A stretch of 20,085 nucleotides of DNA, taken from a virus. A program made the translations under genes and the position numbers. Below are positions 2,722-20,085 of this stretch, in pieces; within the stretch, counting starts at the first letter, position 1, and every line of letters begins with the position of its first letter. The DNA is taken from the IMG/VR virus record IMGVR_UViG_3300042549_001687, positions 1-20,085 of that record. One strand, given 5' to 3'. The notes under the pieces were generated by a model. It was given only the letters and a program-made list of their open reading frames with translations. It did no database searches and was not told the origin of the DNA.

Positions 2722-3105
2722 TTATTGCATACGTAAAATCTGCTGACATGCTCTGACTACACCAGACGGAAATGTATTTCGGCTTACAATAAAAGTACAC
2801 AGTGCAAATATGTTTGTACTGGTGGTGTCAGTTAAAGCTGCTTTAAGCAAAGACTCAAATTGTTTTTGTGCGGATGGAAGTAGCTTGTCATATGAAGTTT
2901 GCATTTCTTGTTTAGGTATCTTTGCCCATGCAGCTAATACTTCAGCTTCTTCATCCAACTCTTCCATATAAGCATCAAATTTATCAAACAAACCACCCAA
3001 TGGACGAGCATTTTTATTAGAGTGGCTTATTATACGACTTTCGTATTCGTTTACTACTTTTCTAACCTCTTCACGGATTAGTTTTCTAAATTCTGATACT
3101 TTCAT
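2722..3105 (-). CDS. Small protein with the shared MKxSE N-terminal motif, 127 residues
   Basis: The N-terminus MKVSEFRKLIREEVRKVVNE matches that of the gene upstream (3107-3676) at both protein and DNA level: 36 of 41 bases are identical between 3065-3105 and 3636-3676. After residue 20 the two proteins diverge entirely. The remainder is mostly helical and soluble, with an acidic stretch (YMEELDEEAEVLAAWAK) and a Ser/Thr-rich C-terminal third. I recognise no enzyme motif. It begins one base after the upstream stop (TAA-A-ATG) without a Shine-Dalgarno, so translational coupling is likely. A modular tag fused to unrelated bodies suggests a targeting or processing signal rather than a shared catalytic function. 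What the body does is unknown. Confidence 0.83.
   Translation of the reverse strand: MKVSEFRKLIREEVRKVVNEYESRIISHSNKNARPLGGLFDKFDAYMEELDEEAEVLAAWAKIPKQEMQTSYDKLLPSAQKQFESLLKAALTDTTSTNIFALCTFIVSRNTFPSGVVRACQQILRMQ
3065..3105 (-). repeat. Repeated coding module for the MKxSE tag, copy 2
   Basis: These 41 bases are identical at 36 positions to 3636-3676. Both encode the first 13-14 residues of neighbouring, otherwise unrelated proteins. A weaker third copy begins the gene at 2713. Confidence 0.8.
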
Positions 3106-3106
3106 T

Positions 3107-3676
3107 TTATTTTGTGCTTTTTTTAGTCATTCGTAGTACTGCAATGGATAGTATAGTTATCACAAAGAATGCAAAGAAAGCGTACATACCTAGCTTAAAC
3201 CAAATACTCGCTTCAGCTGCTCTGGCTCCATATAAATCAGTCATCACCTTCATAACATCAGACTCAGCCATACCTTGTATTGTTTTATAATACCATTGAT
3301 TAAAGGATTGATCTATATAACTGCCAGCAGATCCTATTGCAGTTATACCACTAAACAACCCTCCTCCAACACCCAACTTAGCACCAACCATTGCAAACTT
3401 CCTTACCTTGTCTACAAAACCTTCTGATATTTGTTGTGATTGTGTTTCTAAATCCTTTTGTGCTTTGCTAATCGAATTTGGCTGTATAGGTTGTACTTTC
3501 AACTTGTCAATATTAATAAACTGTGCGGCATTATCGTAGTTTTTAGTAGCTGCTTCTGTTGCTGCACTTTTAATTCTATTTAGAAAGTCCCCAAGTTTGC
3601 CTTCATTGAGCTGTTGCTCATATACAACTACTTGAACTTCTTCGCGGATTAGTTTTCTAAACTCTGATGTTTTCAT
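3107..3676 (-). CDS. MKxSE-motif protein with hydrophobic segments, 189 residues
   Basis: It begins MKTSEFRKLIREEVQVVVYE, the shared tag, followed by a helical region (LGDFLNRIKSAATEAA) and a Gln/Ser-rich linker. A glycine-rich hydrophobic stretch lies at about residues 93-118 (GAKLGVGGGLFSGITAIGSA). A clear transmembrane helix lies at about 162-182 (LGMYAFFAFFVITILSIAVL), followed by a basic tail RMTKKSTK. A membrane-active protein carried in the virion, or an inner-membrane protein, are both possible; I cannot assign a function. A promoter-like AT-rich motif lies 10 bases before its ATG, so it may head a transcription unit continuing through the two small MKxSE genes to the gene ending at 2130. 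There is no Shine-Dalgarno. Confidence 0.83.
   Translation of the reverse strand: MKTSEFRKLIREEVQVVVYEQQLNEGKLGDFLNRIKSAATEAATKNYDNAAQFINIDKLKVQPIQPNSISKAQKDLETQSQQISEGFVDKVRKFAMVGAKLGVGGGLFSGITAIGSAGSYIDQSFNQWYYKTIQGMAESDVMKVMTDLYGARAAEASIWFKLGMYAFFAFFVITILSIAVLRMTKKSTK
3636..3676 (-). repeat. Repeated coding module for the MKxSE tag, copy 1
   Basis: This is the first of the two most similar tag-coding stretches (36 of 41 bases shared with 3065-3105). Differences are mostly at third codon positions, which suggests selection on the peptide. Confidence 0.8.
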
Positions 3677-3706: not shown

Positions 3707-4990
3707 TTACTGTAAACACTTGTAATTACTACCTGTTTTTATTTTAAACGGAAAATGACTTGGTATCACTTTGTTTAAAGACTCTTGTAATAATTCACAT
3801 CTATCTTTTGGTAAATCGAATAGGATACTATCGTATGTGTATAGTATTGGCACAATATCTTTATCCAATGTTTTAAACAACTCACTAAGCATTGTTACGT
3901 TTTGCTCTGTCTCATACATCTGAATAAAGTAGTTAAACAGCGTATATACAGTTATATCTTGATAGTTAGCCAATGTAAGTCTTCTGCCTGATATAGGACT
4001 TTCTACATACCCACTACTATTAGCTTCTCTCCAGATCTCTTGTGCTAATGCCTCAATAGATGCAAAGAAAGGTATGTGCATGTATTGTTGTTGTATCCCT
4101 CCATATATCTGTCTAAAGGTCATCTCTTTAGCTTTCTCAATATCCTCTTGTGTTGGTGTTTGAGTATTGCTATAGTGTTTAGCTAAGTGTTCATATACAT
4201 TTTCACCTTGAAAGTCATATCCGATTAAAGATGCAATTAGTCTTGGGTGATATGAATTAAAGTCAATCTCAACTAAAGTACCTAGTCTATTTACAAAGCA
4301 GTTTCTAGTATCATCCTCTTTATTTAAAGCTGCAAAATTTATACCACCAAATCTATTACTTGGTCTTCCAGTTGTTGTGTAATAGTTGTATTGTGTGTAA
4401 CATGAGTTACCAACTCTACTAAAGGTTTTACTAAAGCGTTCTTCAAATAAAGTAGGATCAATACTCAAGCCATGTCTTTCAATATTATAAAACACGTTTT
4501 GTAGTTGGTGTTGATAGAATGATAGTCCTGCTTGTTCGTCCTTAATCCATATGTCGCTGAAGATGCTTAAAGCAATCTCTTCATGCTTAAGTAATGGCAC
4601 TAAATCGTTTATCTTGTGGCAGTTTTGGTATTGTCTAGTGTAATGATTGATTACTCCTGGAGTATCTAATTCGTAAGGTTTGTTTGTGAATAGGTAGTAT
4701 TGCATTTGAACATCTACGTAGCTATCTGTATTGTATCCACAATACTTGAGTAGCAATATGTCATAGCAATACACCTTAGAATCTTTTAAGAAATCTAAAT
4801 CAGATATGTTTAGTATTCCGTCAGGATGTCCATTACTAATTGTGTATGCTTCTTTTGATTGGGTATCGATTACAACAAATCCTATAATTGGATTATTGCA
4901 CCTATGAAGTCTATCATCCTTTTTGATAGGATATAAGAACACAGACTTATTCTTTAGGTTTTGTATTTGTTGTATAGTATCTACGATCAT
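3707..4990 (-). CDS. Compact family A (Pol I-like) DNA polymerase
   Basis: This 427-residue protein carries a divergent Pol I-type polymerase domain. The TxGRPSNRFGGINFAAL segment at about 206-222 corresponds to the TGR...N.Q motif. Motif A is LVEIDFNSYHPRL (239-251; metal-binding D243). Motif B is AKEMTFRQIYGG (287-298), with K288 and Y296 at the positions of the O-helix Lys and Tyr. Motif C is YTYDSILFD (384-392, D387). In motif A the usual Glu of DYSQIELR (steric gate) is replaced by His. The N-terminal 150 residues keep traces of a 3'-5' exonuclease fold (VYCYDILLLKYCG at 73-85 and VDVQMQYYLF at 92-101) but lack the DxE motif, so proofreading is probably lost. I chose ATG 4990 over an upstream TTG at 4999. 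Its place between virion genes and small tagged genes is unusual. A role in replication or repair with UvsX and gp32 is likely. Confidence 0.84.
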   Translation of the reverse strand: MIVDTIQQIQNLKNKSVFLYPIKKDDRLHRCNNPIIGFVVIDTQSKEAYTISNGHPDGILNISDLDFLKDSKVYCYDILLLKYCGYNTDSYVDVQMQYYLFTNKPYELDTPGVINHYTRQYQNCHKINDLVPLLKHEEIALSIFSDIWIKDEQAGLSFYQHQLQNVFYNIERHGLSIDPTLFEERFSKTFSRVGNSCYTQYNYYTTTGRPSNRFGGINFAALNKEDDTRNCFVNRLGTLVEIDFNSYHPRLIASLIGYDFQGENVYEHLAKHYSNTQTPTQEDIEKAKEMTFRQIYGGIQQQYMHIPFFASIEALAQEIWREANSSGYVESPISGRRLTLANYQDITVYTLFNYFIQMYETEQNVTMLSELFKTLDKDIVPILYTYDSILFDLPKDRCELLQESLNKVIPSHFPFKIKTGSNYKCLQ

Positions 4991-5021
4991 GTAGAACAAT
5001 ATACATACTTTTAAGTTAAAA

Positions 5022-10481: not shown

Positions 10482-12971
10482 TTATCTACTAGTGTAATTA
10501 ATTTCTCTGCTTATAATTGGTGCTAATACATGACCAATTGCTTTACCGTCGATTGTAACATTACCTTTCTTATTAAGTATATTGGATGCAAGAGTTTCAA
10601 CAGCCGATATTAACTTGTCTAGTTTATCTTCTTTTTCTTCTCCACCCCCATTAGCTATATTGCTTAGAGCGTTTCCTATCTCTTGGAACTTAGGTGCTGA
10701 TGCAGCTAGTTGAAGAAGTTTGTCTATTACTGGAGGAGTTGCATTATTCATTTTTCCTAATGCTGTAGTTATCATATCTAAGCCTGTACCTACAGCACCT
10801 ATTCCAATACCCATACTACCCAATGCAACTATATCCTTTAATCCTGCCAATCCTTCTTTTTGTTTTGCTAGATTTGATAAGTTTTCAGCAAATACACCTA
10901 TACCTAGACCTAAAGCTATCAAAGCTAGTATACCAGCTCCAAATATATAAGCACCAATACCAGTCATCATAATAGCTCCTAATGCAAATACTGATACTCC
11001 AAACTCCAATAATCCTGCTCCAGCTGCTTTCACAGCTTCCATATCTAAACCTATCAATTGCTTCATTGCATAGGTAAATGGTATTAAAGCGACACCTAAA
11101 AATGCTAAAGCAACTGATCCGGCAATTATTTCTCCTGCTACTTGACTCAATCCCGCAGTTACTAAGGACATTGCTGTTAATGCTACTAATCCTATACCAA
11201 CAGCTGGCCATTCAACAGTAGCAAACTGTTGAAATGCTTTTGCTGATACATACAATGCTGCTGCTACGATTAGTAATGCTGCTGCACCTTGTAACATAGA
11301 TCCAACATTTAGTTTACCTACTGCACCTGCACCACCTACACCACCAGCTCCACCTCCTGCAGGAATCGTATTACTCTTCATCTTTAGAGCATTTATCAGC
11401 TTATACTGCGTTACCATTTGGAAAAGAGAAAAAAGTAATGGGCCTAATTCACCAGTACCCTTCTTAACAGCTCCTAACCAATCCACAGTAGTACCTAAAA
11501 GTTCTTTGAAATAACCAGCACTTTCTCCAGAATATTTATTCGACTCTACCTGTGCATCTAACGCTTTTTGTAATTGCTCGGTAGTCATACCTGCTGATTT
11601 AGCTAAGGCTTCTTGTTGAACCATGTTCATTCTACCAAACTCAGCTTGTCCTCCTACATTTCTTAATACTTCTCTGGTTGCACCTTCTATATCATGGTTG
11701 AGTGCCATCTCCCGTGCTTTGTCTAGATTTATTTCTCTACCCAATAATACTGAAGCTTCCATTTGAGCATTAATACTGCTTTCAAAATCAAGCAATCCTT
11801 TTGCCATACTGACTGATGTACTAAGTTCAACACCCATCTTATGCAATTCAATTACTGCCTTACCAAACGCTACTGCTCCTCTACTGCCAAATAATGCCAT
11901 GGCTTCTGTGTTCTTGGCCATGTCTTTCATTATCTTACCTGGAGCTATTCCTTGCAGTTTAGCCATTGCACCTACCTGCTTCATTGAGTTTGCTGCAGAT
12001 TGTGAAGTTTCGCCTGGCATTTGGGATAGTGAAGCGTTTAAGGCTAAAGCCTCTTCTCCAGATATTCCAAGCTGATGAGCCATTTCGCCTAGATTATCAA
12101 CAAGTTCACTACTTAAGGCATTTACGTTACCATATTGCTCAATGATACCATTCATTACACCTTTATTGTCTGCTAGTCCTACTAAACTTTTAAAAGAAAA
12201 ACTCTTAATTCCAGCTTCTACTGCTTGTGCTGATGATAGACCTTGTTTTTTGAATTCTTTGAAGGTATCTGTAGCTTGTCCTATCTTCTCTATCATTTGC
12301 TGAGCAAAGATAGCTTTTGCCAGTTCTGGTGTTTTAAGTTGATCTATTATCTTTTCTGTGATACCAAACTGACTCAAAAGGGCACTGTTAACCTCTTTTA
12401 TTTTTTCAGCATACGCATCCTGCTTTGCTTGGAGAGCTGCTTTTTCTCTTTCTGCTTTTAATTGCTCGAGTCTTTCCTTAGTACCTTCTTGTATTAGTGT
12501 GTTTTCCTTTTTTAGACTGTCTATACGCTCGATGATTGCTTCTGTTTGACCTCGAAGTAGGTACATCAGATCCTCTGCCTTTTCAATCTGTTCTTTGTCA
12601 GCGTTCTGAGCTTTAAGTCGTGAGACCAGGTCCTCAGCCCTCTGAACTGCTGCATATTTCGCAGCCCTATTCATATCCAGCTGGTTAATTAAGGAGTTAT
12701 TCTCCATTTTTGCTTGCTTTGCAAGCAATCTAAGTTCTACTTCTTTTTGATCTAAACCAGTTCTTAATGACAGAGCTCTAACCCTATCATTAAATGCTTG
12801 AGTTTCTTGCTCTTTGGTATAATCTTTCATCTGAGCGGTCAGATCTTTCAAGAAGGATTTTGCAGAAAAAGCGTCATCAGTCCCTTTTTTAAAGGCACCA
12901 GCAATAACCTTTGAAAGCTTACTCTCTAAGCTATCAAGGTCAATAAGATCATCTGCTCTTTTTTTACCCAT
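10482..12971 (-). CDS. Tail tape measure protein
   Basis: The 829-residue protein has the architecture of a myophage tape measure. A long N-terminal helical/coiled-coil region (about 45-210) is rich in Lys, Glu, Gln and Ala. A middle helical region (about 210-520) includes an Ala/Met-rich stretch. A block of hydrophobic helices follows at about 555-710 (LQGAAALLIVAAALYVSAKAF, FGVSVFALGAIMMTGIGAYI, GILALIALGLGIGVFA), and then a short soluble tail. Such proteins fix tail length during tube assembly and may enter the host envelope on injection. It lies shortly downstream of sheath, tube and the gp26-like chaperone genes, the usual order. T4 gp29 has 590 residues, so if length scales as usual this tail is longer. 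The ATG overlaps the upstream stop (TAATG). Confidence 0.82.
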   Translation of the reverse strand: MGKKRADDLIDLDSLESKLSKVIAGAFKKGTDDAFSAKSFLKDLTAQMKDYTKEQETQAFNDRVRALSLRTGLDQKEVELRLLAKQAKMENNSLINQLDMNRAAKYAAVQRAEDLVSRLKAQNADKEQIEKAEDLMYLLRGQTEAIIERIDSLKKENTLIQEGTKERLEQLKAEREKAALQAKQDAYAEKIKEVNSALLSQFGITEKIIDQLKTPELAKAIFAQQMIEKIGQATDTFKEFKKQGLSSAQAVEAGIKSFSFKSLVGLADNKGVMNGIIEQYGNVNALSSELVDNLGEMAHQLGISGEEALALNASLSQMPGETSQSAANSMKQVGAMAKLQGIAPGKIMKDMAKNTEAMALFGSRGAVAFGKAVIELHKMGVELSTSVSMAKGLLDFESSINAQMEASVLLGREINLDKAREMALNHDIEGATREVLRNVGGQAEFGRMNMVQQEALAKSAGMTTEQLQKALDAQVESNKYSGESAGYFKELLGTTVDWLGAVKKGTGELGPLLFSLFQMVTQYKLINALKMKSNTIPAGGGAGGVGGAGAVGKLNVGSMLQGAAALLIVAAALYVSAKAFQQFATVEWPAVGIGLVALTAMSLVTAGLSQVAGEIIAGSVALAFLGVALIPFTYAMKQLIGLDMEAVKAAGAGLLEFGVSVFALGAIMMTGIGAYIFGAGILALIALGLGIGVFAENLSNLAKQKEGLAGLKDIVALGSMGIGIGAVGTGLDMITTALGKMNNATPPVIDKLLQLAASAPKFQEIGNALSNIANGGGEEKEDKLDKLISAVETLASNILNKKGNVTIDGKAIGHVLAPIISREINYTSR

Positions 12972-13282
12972 TATTTAAAGTACTTACCAAAGCTTCCTTT
13001 TCGAACATCATATACTAATAGGTCAGCAAATTTTTGTGGATCTTGTTTGATTAGACTAGTAGCTCTTTTTGTAAATTCTTTCTCACTCATATTAAACTTT
13101 TTTGATAGTGCTTTAAAGTCTGGTGAGTTGATGATTCTAGCATACTGATAGTCTGCTGCATGGTTGAAATGACCCTTTACAAAAGTCTCAGCTTTGTCTA
13201 ATAACCAGCTAGTTATACTCTCCTCAATTCTATGATTTTGGATTTCGTCGTGTATAATCTTATGTATATCTGATTTTTTCAT
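12971..13282 (-). CDS. Small MKxSE-like protein before the tape measure, 103 residues
   Basis: It starts MKKSDIHKIIHDEIQNHRIE, a more distant version of the tag on the three small proteins at 2510-3676. The I-R-E at residues 10-12 is here I-H-D, but an I-E-E occurs at 19-21. The body is helical and basic, with ITSWLLDKAETFVKGHFNHA and a C-terminal helix-rich part (FADLLVYDVRKGSFGKYFK). I recognise no domain. It starts a new transcription unit: an intrinsic terminator lies 41 bases upstream and a promoter-like motif 10 bases upstream. It overlaps the tape measure start (TAATG), so its product would be made at a coupled rate. A tail assembly helper or packaged protein are both possible. Confidence 0.78.
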   Translation of the reverse strand: MKKSDIHKIIHDEIQNHRIEESITSWLLDKAETFVKGHFNHAADYQYARIINSPDFKALSKKFNMSEKEFTKRATSLIKQDPQKFADLLVYDVRKGSFGKYFK

Positions 13283-13314: not shown

Positions 13315-13341
13315 ATAAGAAAAGCCAGTGATTAACTGGCT
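13315..13341 (-). terminator. Intrinsic terminator after the frameshift extension
   Basis: A 7-base-pair stem AGCCAGT / ACTGGCT with a 5-base loop (TAATC) is followed by TTTCTTATTT on the coding strand. The stem begins 10 bases after the TAA at 13352-13354 that ends the +1-frame extension, which supports that stop as the true end of the gp26-like unit. Confidence 0.75.
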
Positions 13342-13351
13342 CTCTTTGTCT

Positions 13352-13558
13352 TTATCTTCTGCTTGATTTAGCTTTGTCATAAGCAGCCTTTTCAGCATCA
13401 TTTTCATCTTTCTTAATTTTTGATAACTTGAGGTAATAATATCGTCTGAGATATACCGGTAAGTTATACAGTTCTGTCCATGACCAGCCCATTTTTCCAT
13501 AATACATAAGGTCAAATATCTGGTCGTATAGGATGGGCCTATAGTCAGACCCCAGGCC
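13352..13558 (-). CDS. Frameshift extension of the gp26-like protein (candidate tail chaperone)
   Basis: In the frame +1 (equivalently -2) to the upstream gene, 68 codons run from GGC at 13558 to TAA at 13354-13352 and encode a protein-like sequence: GLGSDYRPILYDQIFDLMYY, then GKMGWSWTELYNLPVYLRRY and YYLKLSKIKK with a charged tail. This aromatic pattern is what I recall of small proteins next to gp26 in T4-like phages. The first ATG in the frame is at 13507, 17 codons in, and the conserved-looking residues lie before it. Upstream in this frame a TAG at 13576-13574 blocks independent initiation. Translation is therefore probably by slippage on the T7 run, giving a fusion of about 354 residues. 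Initiation at 13507 (51 residues), or a sequencing error in the T run, are the alternatives. Confidence 0.68.
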   Translation of the reverse strand, partial: GLGSDYRPILYDQIFDLMYYGKMGWSWTELYNLPVYLRRYYYLKLSKIKKDENDAEKAAYDKAKSSRR

Positions 13559-14417
13559 AAAAAAACCCGACTCCTATGGGCAAGGCCATGTTCTCTTGCT
13601 CATAATCACAATTAGGACAACTAAATGTGAAGGTTGTGTTAACGTCTGGAGTATTCTCTTTCAAATACGTACGCAGTGTTAGGGAATCTCTTGATAACAT
13701 TGTATCTACAGTCTTGTTAATAACTGCTGGATCACTATTACCATCAACTGCCACTACAATATGCTTTAGACGAGTTGTTAAATCTGAGTCAGATCCTATA
13801 ATTTTGTTTAGCTTTTTAGCTGCTTTAGAATCATCTTCAATCTTTTTCTCATCTCCGTGAGTTAAAAACTTAAGTGTTAATTCTTTTTTGCTAATTGGCA
13901 ATGTAAACTTGTGAGTGCATACCCCTTTTGTAAACTTGGTCCAATCGATTTCTTTTTCATCGAACTCCTGTAAGTCAATAACGTGTTTAGATTTTTCACC
14001 ACAACTTGGGCAAGCAATCTCTACTTCATAGTCCTTACCATAACCTAGAATACGAGCTGCAATAAAGATTGCATTCTTATCTACGGTTAATAGATCGTTA
14101 TAGTTAATCTTAGTAACAATCAATGATTGTAATAGTTTATCAATTACAACACCTTGTTTGATAAGGTTTTGTGATGCCAAGATATCCTCTTCTTTAGCAG
14201 TCATGTACTTCATCTCAATCTTTCCAGATGATAGTGGATGTCCTTCTGGATAGAAGTATCCTCTACTTGGTAGATCGATGATTTCAGTTGGAACATCTAA
14301 TTTTTGAAATGTTTCCATTGTACCGGTGTTTGTGGACTCTGCTAAGAACTTAGCTTTGATTTCCTCGTCTGTTAGACGCACACTGTTGGGGTAATCGTCG
14401 TTTACAACTTTGCTCAT
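13545..14417 (-). CDS. 26: gp26-like baseplate hub assembly/tail chaperone with zinc ribbon
   Basis: The 290-residue protein resembles the T4_baseplate (gp26-like) family of T4-like phages. The pattern IDLPSRGYFYPEGHPLSSGKIEMKYMTAKEEDIL (49-80) is followed by a helical region and two CxxC pairs (C136/C139 in CPSCGEKS; C267/C270 in CPNCDYEQ) that should bind one zinc. It ends PIGVGFFWPGV. T4 gp26 and gp51 are needed for hub formation yet are not clearly part of the finished baseplate, which would suit chaperones. The gene lies directly after sheath and tube and just before the tape measure, the classical site of tail assembly chaperone genes that frameshift. The codons for FF near the end are a T7 run, and a good continuation is present in the +1 frame. 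Terminators lie before and after the unit. Confidence 0.84.
   Translation of the reverse strand: MSKVVNDDYPNSVRLTDEEIKAKFLAESTNTGTMETFQKLDVPTEIIDLPSRGYFYPEGHPLSSGKIEMKYMTAKEEDILASQNLIKQGVVIDKLLQSLIVTKINYNDLLTVDKNAIFIAARILGYGKDYEVEIACPSCGEKSKHVIDLQEFDEKEIDWTKFTKGVCTHKFTLPISKKELTLKFLTHGDEKKIEDDSKAAKKLNKIIGSDSDLTTRLKHIVVAVDGNSDPAVINKTVDTMLSRDSLTLRTYLKENTPDVNTTFTFSCPNCDYEQENMALPIGVGFFWPGV
13559..13565 (-). other. Probable translational frameshift site (T7)
   Basis: The coding strand reads G-GGT-TTT-TTT-GGC across the end of the gp26-like gene; zero-frame codons are GGG TTT TTT TGG. A +1 or -2 slip enters a 68-codon open frame. GGCCT (13554-13558) can pair with AGGCC (13536-13540), a 5-bp GC-rich hairpin directly 3' of the run that may stimulate slippage. 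Phage Mu uses -2 and many phages -1 slippage in the equivalent gene pair. Confidence 0.62.
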
Positions 14418-14469: not shown

Positions 14470-14500
14470 AAAAAAGAAAGCCAACATTTCTGCTGGCTTT
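14470..14500 (-). terminator. Intrinsic terminator after the tail tube gene
   Basis: A 9-base-pair stem (AAAGCCAGC with GTTGGCTTT, one G-T pair) around a 6-base loop is followed by CTTTTTTATATT on the coding strand. It lies 25 bases after the tube stop and would end the sheath/tube transcript. Confidence 0.8.
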
Positions 14501-14525: not shown

Positions 14526-15014
14526 TTAGTATTCTAATACTGCGTAGTCAATACCTAATGTAAGAGCAATCTCAACTGGAGTCTCAGTAGCCCAATCCAT
14601 ATCACCAAATTGTGATGTTTTGATATAAGCACCCCAAACTTTCCAGTTCTCAACTTTATCACCTACTGGTCCAAGTACAAAGATATCAAAATTCTTTTTG
14701 TAGAAATCTGCATATCCATCACGACCAGTTACTGATTCGTGAGCTGTTCTAACCCATTCCATTACTGCTTGAGCACCTGATGGAACGATTGGATCGTATA
14801 AAGACAAAGTGATATCACCCCACTTACACTTACCTTTCAACTTACGTTGAATGTTGATGTGATCTAAAATTACCTCGCCACAATCGATTTGTGGACGAGA
14901 TACTTTTTTACAAATGAAAGATGGAATACCATCAATCTGTAAGATAAATCTATTCTGTACTTTCGGTTCGAAAGGTGTGTAAAAGATTTGATTATTTTCT
15001 ATTAAATTAGCCAT
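14526..15014 (-). CDS. 19: Tail tube protein, gp19-like
   Basis: At 162 residues it matches the size of T4 gp19 (163). Typical features are the early segment VQNRFILQIDGIPSFICKKVSRP, the strand run GKCKWGDITLSLYDPIVPSG, the helix AQAVMEWVRTAHE and the C-terminal strands WKVWGAYIKTSQFGDMDWAT and VEIALTLGIDYAV. It forms the inner tube through which DNA passes. It lies 18 bases after the sheath gene, as in T4 (18 then 19). It has its own promoter-like motif overlapping the end of the sheath gene, and a strong terminator follows, which would allow separate, high expression. No Shine-Dalgarno is present (AAAAGAAC before ATG). Confidence 0.91.
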   Translation of the reverse strand: MANLIENNQIFYTPFEPKVQNRFILQIDGIPSFICKKVSRPQIDCGEVILDHINIQRKLKGKCKWGDITLSLYDPIVPSGAQAVMEWVRTAHESVTGRDGYADFYKKNFDIFVLGPVGDKVENWKVWGAYIKTSQFGDMDWATETPVEIALTLGIDYAVLEY

Positions 15015-18774: not shown

Positions 18775-19443
18775 TTAAAGACCAAATCTGCCTTTTAATG
18801 CATTATAGTTTTGTGTTACTTCGGTACTAGTTAATGATTTATTATAGATGTGCATTGAAGATATGTTTCCATTAAAAAAATTTGAAGTACCAGCATATGC
18901 ACCCAAATAAAAATTATTAGCATTACCAGTTACGCTACCACCAAAAGTAAGACTAGCAATTGAAGCTGAGTTAGAGTACAGAGTGACGTTTGTACTACTT
19001 CTGACAGCTACTATATTATACCAAGTATCTACACTAAAATTACCATGATTTCCAAAAGCGGAATAATTCCAATTGGAACCATCAGCATATGATATTTTGT
19101 TACTAAAAAAAGCAATGCTAAAATGACTGTCTTTTGCAATAGGTATGTGCGTTATGTTGTTTACCTTTAGTTTTACCCAAAAAGATAAACTAAAATTACT
19201 TCCTGTCAGCAAAGAAAAAGGTCCAAAGTTGACTATATCATTTGTACCGTCAAACACAATAGATCCTTTATTGTTGGAATTAAATGTTGGTCCATTTGTT
19301 AATGTACCATTATTATTCCCACTTCTACTAACATCTCTCCAAGTAGTTCCTGTCTTAGGGTAAGAATCCATCTTAGCAGCATCTACATTTAGCATTAGAC
19401 CATCTAAAACCATACCTCCGTAATATGCTATTCTACCTGCCAT
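18775..19443 (-). CDS. LamG/concanavalin-like virion surface protein
   Basis: This 222-residue protein is a single LamG-like jelly-roll domain. The start of such domains, GLMLNVDAAKMDSYPKTGTT with W-RDVS and NGTLTNGPTF, is followed by the core signature GSIVFDGTNDIV, a strand FSLSFWVKL, the pair WYNIVAVR and VTLYSNS, and the closing IYNKSLTSTEVTQNYNALKG. LamG domains bind glycans or proteins; in phage virions they act in receptor binding or surface decoration. I chose ATG 19443, one base after the upstream stop (TAA-A-ATG), because it gives MAGRIAYYGGMV; an alternative at 19455 adds four residues. The gene upstream is a paralogue, so a tandem duplication is evident. There is no signal peptide. 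Confidence 0.82.
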   Translation of the reverse strand: MAGRIAYYGGMVLDGLMLNVDAAKMDSYPKTGTTWRDVSRSGNNNGTLTNGPTFNSNNKGSIVFDGTNDIVNFGPFSLLTGSNFSLSFWVKLKVNNITHIPIAKDSHFSIAFFSNKISYADGSNWNYSAFGNHGNFSVDTWYNIVAVRSSTNVTLYSNSASIASLTFGGSVTGNANNFYLGAYAGTSNFFNGNISSMHIYNKSLTSTEVTQNYNALKGRFGL

Positions 19444-19444
19444 T

Positions 19445-20085
19445 TTATAATCCAAATCTGCTTTTTAAAGCGTTATAGTTTTGTGAAATCTCAGCTGCTG
19501 TGAGAGCTTTATTATAAGCTTTTACTATAGCAATTCTTCCGACCCAAGGTGTTCCTGTGTAGCCAGTTCCTATAGTTATGTTGGTTGTTGTGTTAGCAAG
19601 TACACCATAAGGATTTGACATGGTAGCTGTGTTACTATTATTTACGTACCATCTTACTTCACTTGCATTTCGAGTTACAGCTAACATATTCCATCTACCT
19701 GTAGGAGTAGTAGATGAGTTTAGGAATGTATAAGGGCTATTGTCAGTACCGGAATTACCATAGTAATAGCTTATATTACTACCTCCTTCAAACGTCCAAG
19801 TTCCAGCTCCACCATATGCTTGATTCCATATATTCCTTCTACCTGTTGTAAAATCATGATATTCCCAAAATAAAATAGTTTGAGCTGTTGACCAGCTAGC
19901 CATGCTAGCAGCGTTATAACTTACAGAAACATAGTCATTAGACCCATCAAATACTATACTTCCTCCATTTCTACTATCAAAGGTAGGTCCGTTTACTAAT
20001 GTACCATGATTTTTATTTCCACTTAAATCAGTCCAAGTAGTACTTCCACTAACATAAGACCTATGGTTAGCAGCATCTATATGCA
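19445..20085 (-). CDS. LamG-like virion protein, 5' end outside the window
   Basis: The frame is open from the window edge to the stop at 19445 (about 212 residues visible). Codons from 20083 read HIDAANHRSYVSGSTTWTDL and continue with SGNKNHGTLVNGPTFDSRNG and GSIVFDGSNDYV, aligning with the paralogue downstream from its residue 22 or so. The ATG at 19903 lies inside the domain and is not the real start. The C-terminus (VKAYNKALTAAEISQNYNAL, then KSRFGL) matches that of the neighbour (NALKGRFGL). Only the first 20 or so residues are likely to be missing if the layouts agree. Function is as for the neighbour: carbohydrate or receptor binding on the virion surface. Confidence 0.8.
   Translation of the reverse strand, partial: HIDAANHRSYVSGSTTWTDLSGNKNHGTLVNGPTFDSRNGGSIVFDGSNDYVSVSYNAASMASWSTAQTILFWEYHDFTTGRRNIWNQAYGGAGTWTFEGGSNISYYYGNSGTDNSPYTFLNSSTTPTGRWNMLAVTRNASEVRWYVNNSNTATMSNPYGVLANTTTNITIGTGYTGTPWVGRIAIVKAYNKALTAAEISQNYNALKSRFGL

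Follow-up and report, generated by a model that had tools for sequence, protein, structure and literature searches.

Introduction

Can a T4-type phage lineage make both forms of its tail assembly chaperone from a single gene by ribosomal slippage? The question arose at one locus in a stretch of viral DNA of 20,085 nucleotides (the window, meaning the whole stretch analyzed), where a reading made from the sequence alone had proposed a programmed frameshift that links a gp26-like gene to a second frame of 68 codons, at the T4-type gp26/gp51 position. Nearly all long-tailed phages have frameshifted tail chaperones, and the lambda G/GT case was reportedly worked out by Xu, Hendrix and Duda in 2004. 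T4-type phages have been regarded as lacking slippage or as having two separate genes in its place.

Frameshifting of the lambda G/GT type has been described as widely conserved among long-tailed phages, "except T4", its direction being −1, −2 or +1 depending on the phage (PMC5009743). The T4 proteins gp26 and gp51 have been called hub assembly chaperones, gp51 being essential and of unknown function (PMC3004832), and the gp51 of cyanophages reaches only some 20% of the length of other gp51 proteins (PMC3037559). According to two later papers (PMC10885494, PMC12846349), Vladimirov, Gautam and Davidson (2022, Virology 566:9-15) identified the chaperone genes of T4-like phages and proposed a mechanism other than frameshifting; these two papers also report that a short gene accompanies a fused long one in some T4-like phages, and that TAC-N genes of T4-like phages contain poly-T −1 signals.

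Results

All features of the locus lie on the minus strand. The zero-frame gene (13545..14417) runs from an ATG at 14417 to a TGA at 13547-13545 and encodes a gp26-like protein of 290 aa, the predicted short chaperone form (TAC-N). Its last codons are GGG TTT TTT TGG CCT GGG GTC TGA, with a run of seven Ts at 13565-13559. Skipping base 13559 turns the same letters into GGC CTG GGG TCT GAC and leads into a second frame that is open for 68 codons (13558-13355) and stops at a TAA (13354-13352). A TAG at 13576-13574 closes that frame upstream, and its first ATG, at 13507, lies 17 codons in. In all these particulars the sequence-only reading was correct. The slip site, TTT TTT TGG (13557..13565, in the region GGGTTTTTTTGGCCT), would place UUU in the E site, UUU in the P site (13562-13560) and UGG in the A site (13559-13557); a +1 slip would re-pair UUU on 13561-13559. 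The predicted long form, TAC-NC (P0001; 13352..14417), would have 354 aa, with the one-base skip at TGGC. From the window alone, −2 and +1 slippage are equally possible and lead to the same frame.

The zero-frame protein matched the Pfam family T4_baseplate (PF12322) with 51.6 bits and an E-value of 1.3e-13, above the curated cut-off of 24.5 bits, and phrog_150 (baseplate hub) with an E-value of 1.6e-19. A sequence search of the PDB gave no match. T4 gp26 and gp51 score 215.6 and 177.5 bits on PF12322, and hhalign paired gp26 with the N-terminal part of gp51 at a probability of 99.5. Since both are members of the family, T4 carries two paralogues, gp51 having an extra C-terminal part. The suggestion that gp26 and gp51 are the chaperone pair is not new, and T4 itself does without slippage.

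We modeled the two parts separately with AlphaFold2. The first part was predicted to form a mixed domain (mean pLDDT 84) and the extension three helices (mean pLDDT 85). For the first part, the top-ranked PDB chain in Foldseek was the HK97 tail assembly chaperone 2OB9, an insignificant hit (E 2.1, probability 0.18), and structural alignment to that protein gave a Z of 2.5 over 91 residues; searching the PDB with Foldseek/VIA yielded no confident fold match. Matches in a viral structure library were limited to the T4 hub-assembly family, SP-15 among them.

Gene order agrees with a chaperone role. Directly upstream is a gp19-like tail tube gene (14526..15014; phrog_4542, E 1.2e-24), and the second gene downstream (10482..12971, 829 aa) probably encodes the tape measure protein, judging by its position and length; it had no family match. 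The chaperone pair thus sits between the tube gene and the probable tape measure, with one small ORF intervening downstream, and in Flavobacterium phage immuto the corresponding place is annotated as tape measure.

Two viral-contig scans, one genome-contig scan and two phage records yielded 169 loci with the first part, the window included, and 163 of these also had the extension. Clustering left 118 representatives with less than 90% identity. Scanning was not feasible with profile A2, whose members (SP-15, Streptomyces phages and the like) had diverged too far. The extension lay in the same +1 frame in all 163 loci, and the median open length after the slip was 75 codons in the +1 frame and 2 in the −1 frame. 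Between relatives, substitutions at the first, second and third +1 codon positions numbered 2284, 1300 and 5547. This excess at third positions indicates that the extension evolves as protein, as its composition had led the sequence-only reading to suppose. For L083 (3848-3958) and L084 (3812-3931), GenBank gives only a truncated hypothetical ORF at the +1 extension, whose product probably begins at the slip site.

The extension (13352..13558, 68 codons and TAA), which resembles the C-terminal part of gp51 (TAC-C), scored 19.9 bits against DUF6760 (PF20546; E 7.5e-4), below the cut-off of 27, so we call it similar and do not assign it as a member. Its hhalign match to the T4 gp51 C-terminus was modest, at a probability of 50 (best of 30 column shuffles, 3.75). 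Single extension sequences of the window's lineage had no significant match to phrog_634, and tblastn of the extension alone against phages found no match. Natural fusions make a firmer link to PF12322 proteins than this gp51 similarity does. A DUF6760 scan of 296 genomes of one phylum gave three matches, and in two of them, L194 and L195, PF12322 and PF20546 share one in-frame ORF (859-1623), joined at QSFFM(L/A)RLT; the PF20546 score in L195 is slightly under its cut-off. These are contractile-injection-type loci with a tube gene just upstream. Fusion in some genomes had been raised as something to look for among relatives, and these two cases suggest that DUF6760 is probably a tail-chaperone C-terminal domain. 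Next to the third match, L193, no T4_baseplate ORF was found on the strand examined.

Conservation of the slip site is strong. Among the 118 representatives, the P-site codon is TTT in 115 and CTT in three, never TTC, and the codon before it is TTT in 115, the three exceptions being GCT, TTC and CTT. In the A site TGG stands in 99 representatives, TAC in 14, TTC in three and TAT in two, all of them codons that begin with T, and CCT comes next in 116. TTT TTT or CTT TTT, followed by T, occurs in 114 of the 118, and all 118 have YUU in the P site and then a U that permits +1 re-pairing. Elsewhere in these genes TTC makes up 21% of Phe codons, and other Phe columns are 62-94% TTT. A run of seven Ts was found once in 87,657 nt of the relatives' upstream coding sequence.

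The base before the run (13566..13566) is G in the window and T in only two of the 118 representatives. Two-fold NNY codons in front of the run end in C or T at a ratio of 56:2, against 874:2728 elsewhere in the genes, which we read as avoidance of the −1 heptamer T_TTT_TTT; a non-T base here would block that heptamer. The p values for the absence of TTC from the P site (3e-12) and for the avoidance of T before the run (3e-32) are nominal and overstated, because the loci share ancestry and the counts are not independent.

Comparison strongly supports a programmed frameshift joining the gp26-like protein to the gp51-like extension. As to its direction, given beforehand as +1 or −2, the +1 option is favored, since relatives with a broken T run keep it and lose the −2 option. 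The run is broken in the survey loci L130 (TTC TTT TGG) and L073 (GCT TTT TGG) and in the phages Streptococcus GXN1 (TTC TTT CGT), Streptomyces BRock (CTG TTT CGC) and LR756508 (AAC TTT CTA), and the P-site codon is CTT, giving CUU U as in prfB, in L142, L169 and L083/Flavobacterium immuto. All of these, and likewise Streptomyces LuckySocke, preserve a [C/U]UU with U or C after it. In L130, L073, GXN1, BRock, LuckySocke and LR756508 a +1 slip re-pairs tRNA-Phe on UUU or UUC, whereas a −2 slip gives mismatches. We put the probability that a +1 programmed ribosomal frameshift makes the short and long tail assembly chaperones at a little under nine in ten, judging from sequence comparison.

In a Mu-like −2 frameshift, the P-site tRNA-Phe would move back two bases within the T run and add an extra Phe (FFF-GLGSDYR). 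Mu and some eukaryotic viruses do use −2 (PMC5009743), the resulting frame is the same, and the third T of the codon preceding the P site, which −2 requires and +1 does not strictly require, is nearly invariant. A weak UUU in the E site can account for that T under +1, however, and re-pairing two bases back fails in L130, L073, GXN1, BRock and LR756508, so we consider −2 unlikely. If instead RNA polymerase stuttered on the seven Ts, some mRNAs would lose one U, and most members do have the seven-T homopolymer. Seven Ts is short for slippage by bacterial RNA polymerase, which counts against this idea, and so do the broken runs: the arrangement persists where the run is cut to three to five Ts (L130, L142, L169, L083, L073), and in BRock and LuckySocke with only TTT C. 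The codon phase of the run is also under selection, with TTT and never TTC in the P site, which points to the ribosome and makes transcriptional slippage highly improbable.

We give still less credence to two separate genes, the second with its own start and translated by coupling or by reinitiation after the zero-frame stop. Distant homologues in Pseudomonas Cygsa01 (with a TAATG overlap) and LR756511 have the look of separate genes, and existing records, such as that of immuto, annotate a short separate ORF. In the window, though, the first ATG lies within the conserved core of the extension; 58 of 115 representatives have no ATG, GTG or TTG before that core, and two, L066 and L142, have none anywhere in the extension frame. 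The missing start codons exclude separate initiation for many members. Conservation is among the highest at the residues that precede any start (FFGL..Y), and separate genes would leave the conservation of the T run unexplained. Another explanation is a sequencing or assembly error, with a true run of six Ts and a plain fused gene. Homopolymer errors are common, and plain fusion exists in L194/L195. The same frame relation nevertheless recurs in all 163 loci, which come from many independent assemblies and include broken runs, and in the finished genomes of phages Mel-JY01, immuto, SP-15 and RM378; this excludes a miscounted T for the family. Error is thus already refuted at family level, and its remaining probability is negligible.

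No general stimulator emerged. A GC hairpin at 13558-13536, put forward as following the slip site, can form, but it folds no better than shuffled sequence (z −0.40). It begins at the A-site codon, too close for a classical stimulator, and with no spacer we rejected it in that role. Downstream structure is weak across the family (mean z −0.98 vs −0.39 for the control), and an upstream Shine-Dalgarno stimulator was rejected as a general feature, SD-like sequences being present in 19 of the 118 representatives. The terminator-like hairpin after the extension (13320..13344; 10-pair stem, T-rich tail) is real but begins 7 nt from the stop, not 10 as first given. Another intrinsic-terminator-like hairpin lies between the tail tube and chaperone genes (14477..14500). 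The two flank the chaperone gene and suggest that it has its own short transcription unit or that transcripts end here.

Beyond the surveyed lineage, Rhodothermus phage RM378, at about 22% identity, retains TTT TTT TGG. The extension lies in the −1 frame, preceded by a −1 heptamer, T TTT TTC, in Synechococcus S-CAM8, DSL-LC02, Vibrio Bakedbeans, Pseudomonas MIJ3 and Agrobacterium Atu_ph07, and in the first three of these the extension is phrog_634, "baseplate hub assembly catalyst". T4-type cyanophages and their relatives, and the jumbo phages MIJ3 and Atu_ph07, thus carry the same gene pair as the window with a −1 heptamer in place of the +1 site, and the shortness of cyanophage gp51 is explained by a −1 frameshift. 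By appearance, the genes are separate, overlapping or adjacent, in Cygsa01 and LR756511. In Synechococcus S-SCSM1 (L091, 3170-3374) the extension is in the +1/−2 frame after TTT TTC GCT TAG, unlike in its cyanophage relatives; it may have its own ATG, and this could be a mode change or a sequence error. In a tree whose deep branches are weak and whose root is arbitrary, T4 grouped with the cyanophages and Vibrio, opposite a set made up of the +1 group, MIJ3/Atu_ph07 and the fusions, a placement suggesting that slip direction or mode changed several times.

Elsewhere in the window, four otherwise different small proteins on the minus strand (2510-2800, MKTSEFRKLIREEV; 2722-3105, MKVSEFRKLIREEV; 3107-3676, MKKSELVKMIREEV; 12971-13282, MKKSDIHKIIHDEI) have in common an N-terminal motif like MKxSEFRKLIREEV, which may serve all four as a targeting tag, for instance to the capsid. 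The adjoining ORFs 18775-19455 and 19445-20083 have similar lectin-like sequences, both ending YNALK(S/G)RFGL, and probably go back to a tandem duplication of a gene for a tail or adhesin protein. ORF 3707-4999 (430 aa, TTG start) contains a polymerase-like stretch, EIDFNSYHPRLIASLIG, and had no Pfam match.

Discussion

The mechanism we propose would work as follows. Most ribosomes would read UUU UUU UGG CCU and terminate a few codons on, producing TAC-N. In a minority, the second UUU would be in the P site, paired with tRNA-Phe, and a slow codon, UGG (or UAC, UUC or UAU), would occupy the A site; these ribosomes would slip one base forward onto UUU and stay in the +1 frame, where reading on would append the helical C-terminal domain and give TAC-NC. 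If lambda G/GT is a guide, TAC-N would cover the tape measure protein, and TAC-NC would bring in the tail tube subunits. Slippage itself, its rate and the protein functions are what we infer.

As in lambda G/GT, one gene between tube and tape measure would give a short form and, by slippage, a C-terminally extended long form. Lambda slips −1, whereas the window would slip +1 at UUU U(GG), and the window protein belongs to T4_baseplate PF12322 and not to the lambda G family. The T4 counterpart of the short form is gp26, and that of the long form is gp51 with its C-terminal extension; unlike in the window, these are two complete genes, located on opposite strands, and slippage plays no part. Bacillus phage 0305phi8-36 also has short and long chaperone forms and a contractile tail, but its tail chaperonin pair gp143/gp144 arose by domain duplication, without slippage (PMC2147016). 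The closest parallel for the slip itself is the +1 frameshift of prfB (RF2) at CUU UGA, where P-site CUU/UUU likewise slips +1 onto UUU. There the A site holds a stop codon, whereas the window's family has a sense codon (UGG, UAC, UUC or UAU) and no conserved Shine-Dalgarno-like stimulator. CUU, UUU and CCC are reported as the most +1-slippery codons of those tested before a stop in E. coli, and 350 forward frameshifts are annotated in the PRFect actinophage training set (PMC10885494).

We lean toward a broader reading in which the T4-type locus holds an evolutionary series of all known ways to make short and long chaperones: +1, −1, separate genes, in-frame fusion and duplication (T4 26/51). 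Direction would be set by one or two bases, with a non-U before the run and a U after it for +1, and a U before it and a C at its end for −1. The T4 "exception" would then mean that duplication took the place of slippage at a late stage.

Frameshifts of this kind are known. What seems to be new is the variant, together with its conservation, the bases that set the direction and the series of alternatives. As far as sequence can tell, the strongly conserved slip site, most likely +1, is real in a large T4-type lineage. It places a +1 site in the T4 gp26/gp51 family of a large uncultured T4-type lineage and of cultured Flavobacterium and Microcystis phages, and it corrects many annotations in which the second gene was missed or truncated. 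It also provides a +1 site on a sense codon without an evident stimulator, together with a natural series in which to examine what determines the direction of slippage and how it is lost. For the T4 "hub assembly" proteins, whose role has been unclear, it supports a function as short and long tape-measure chaperones.
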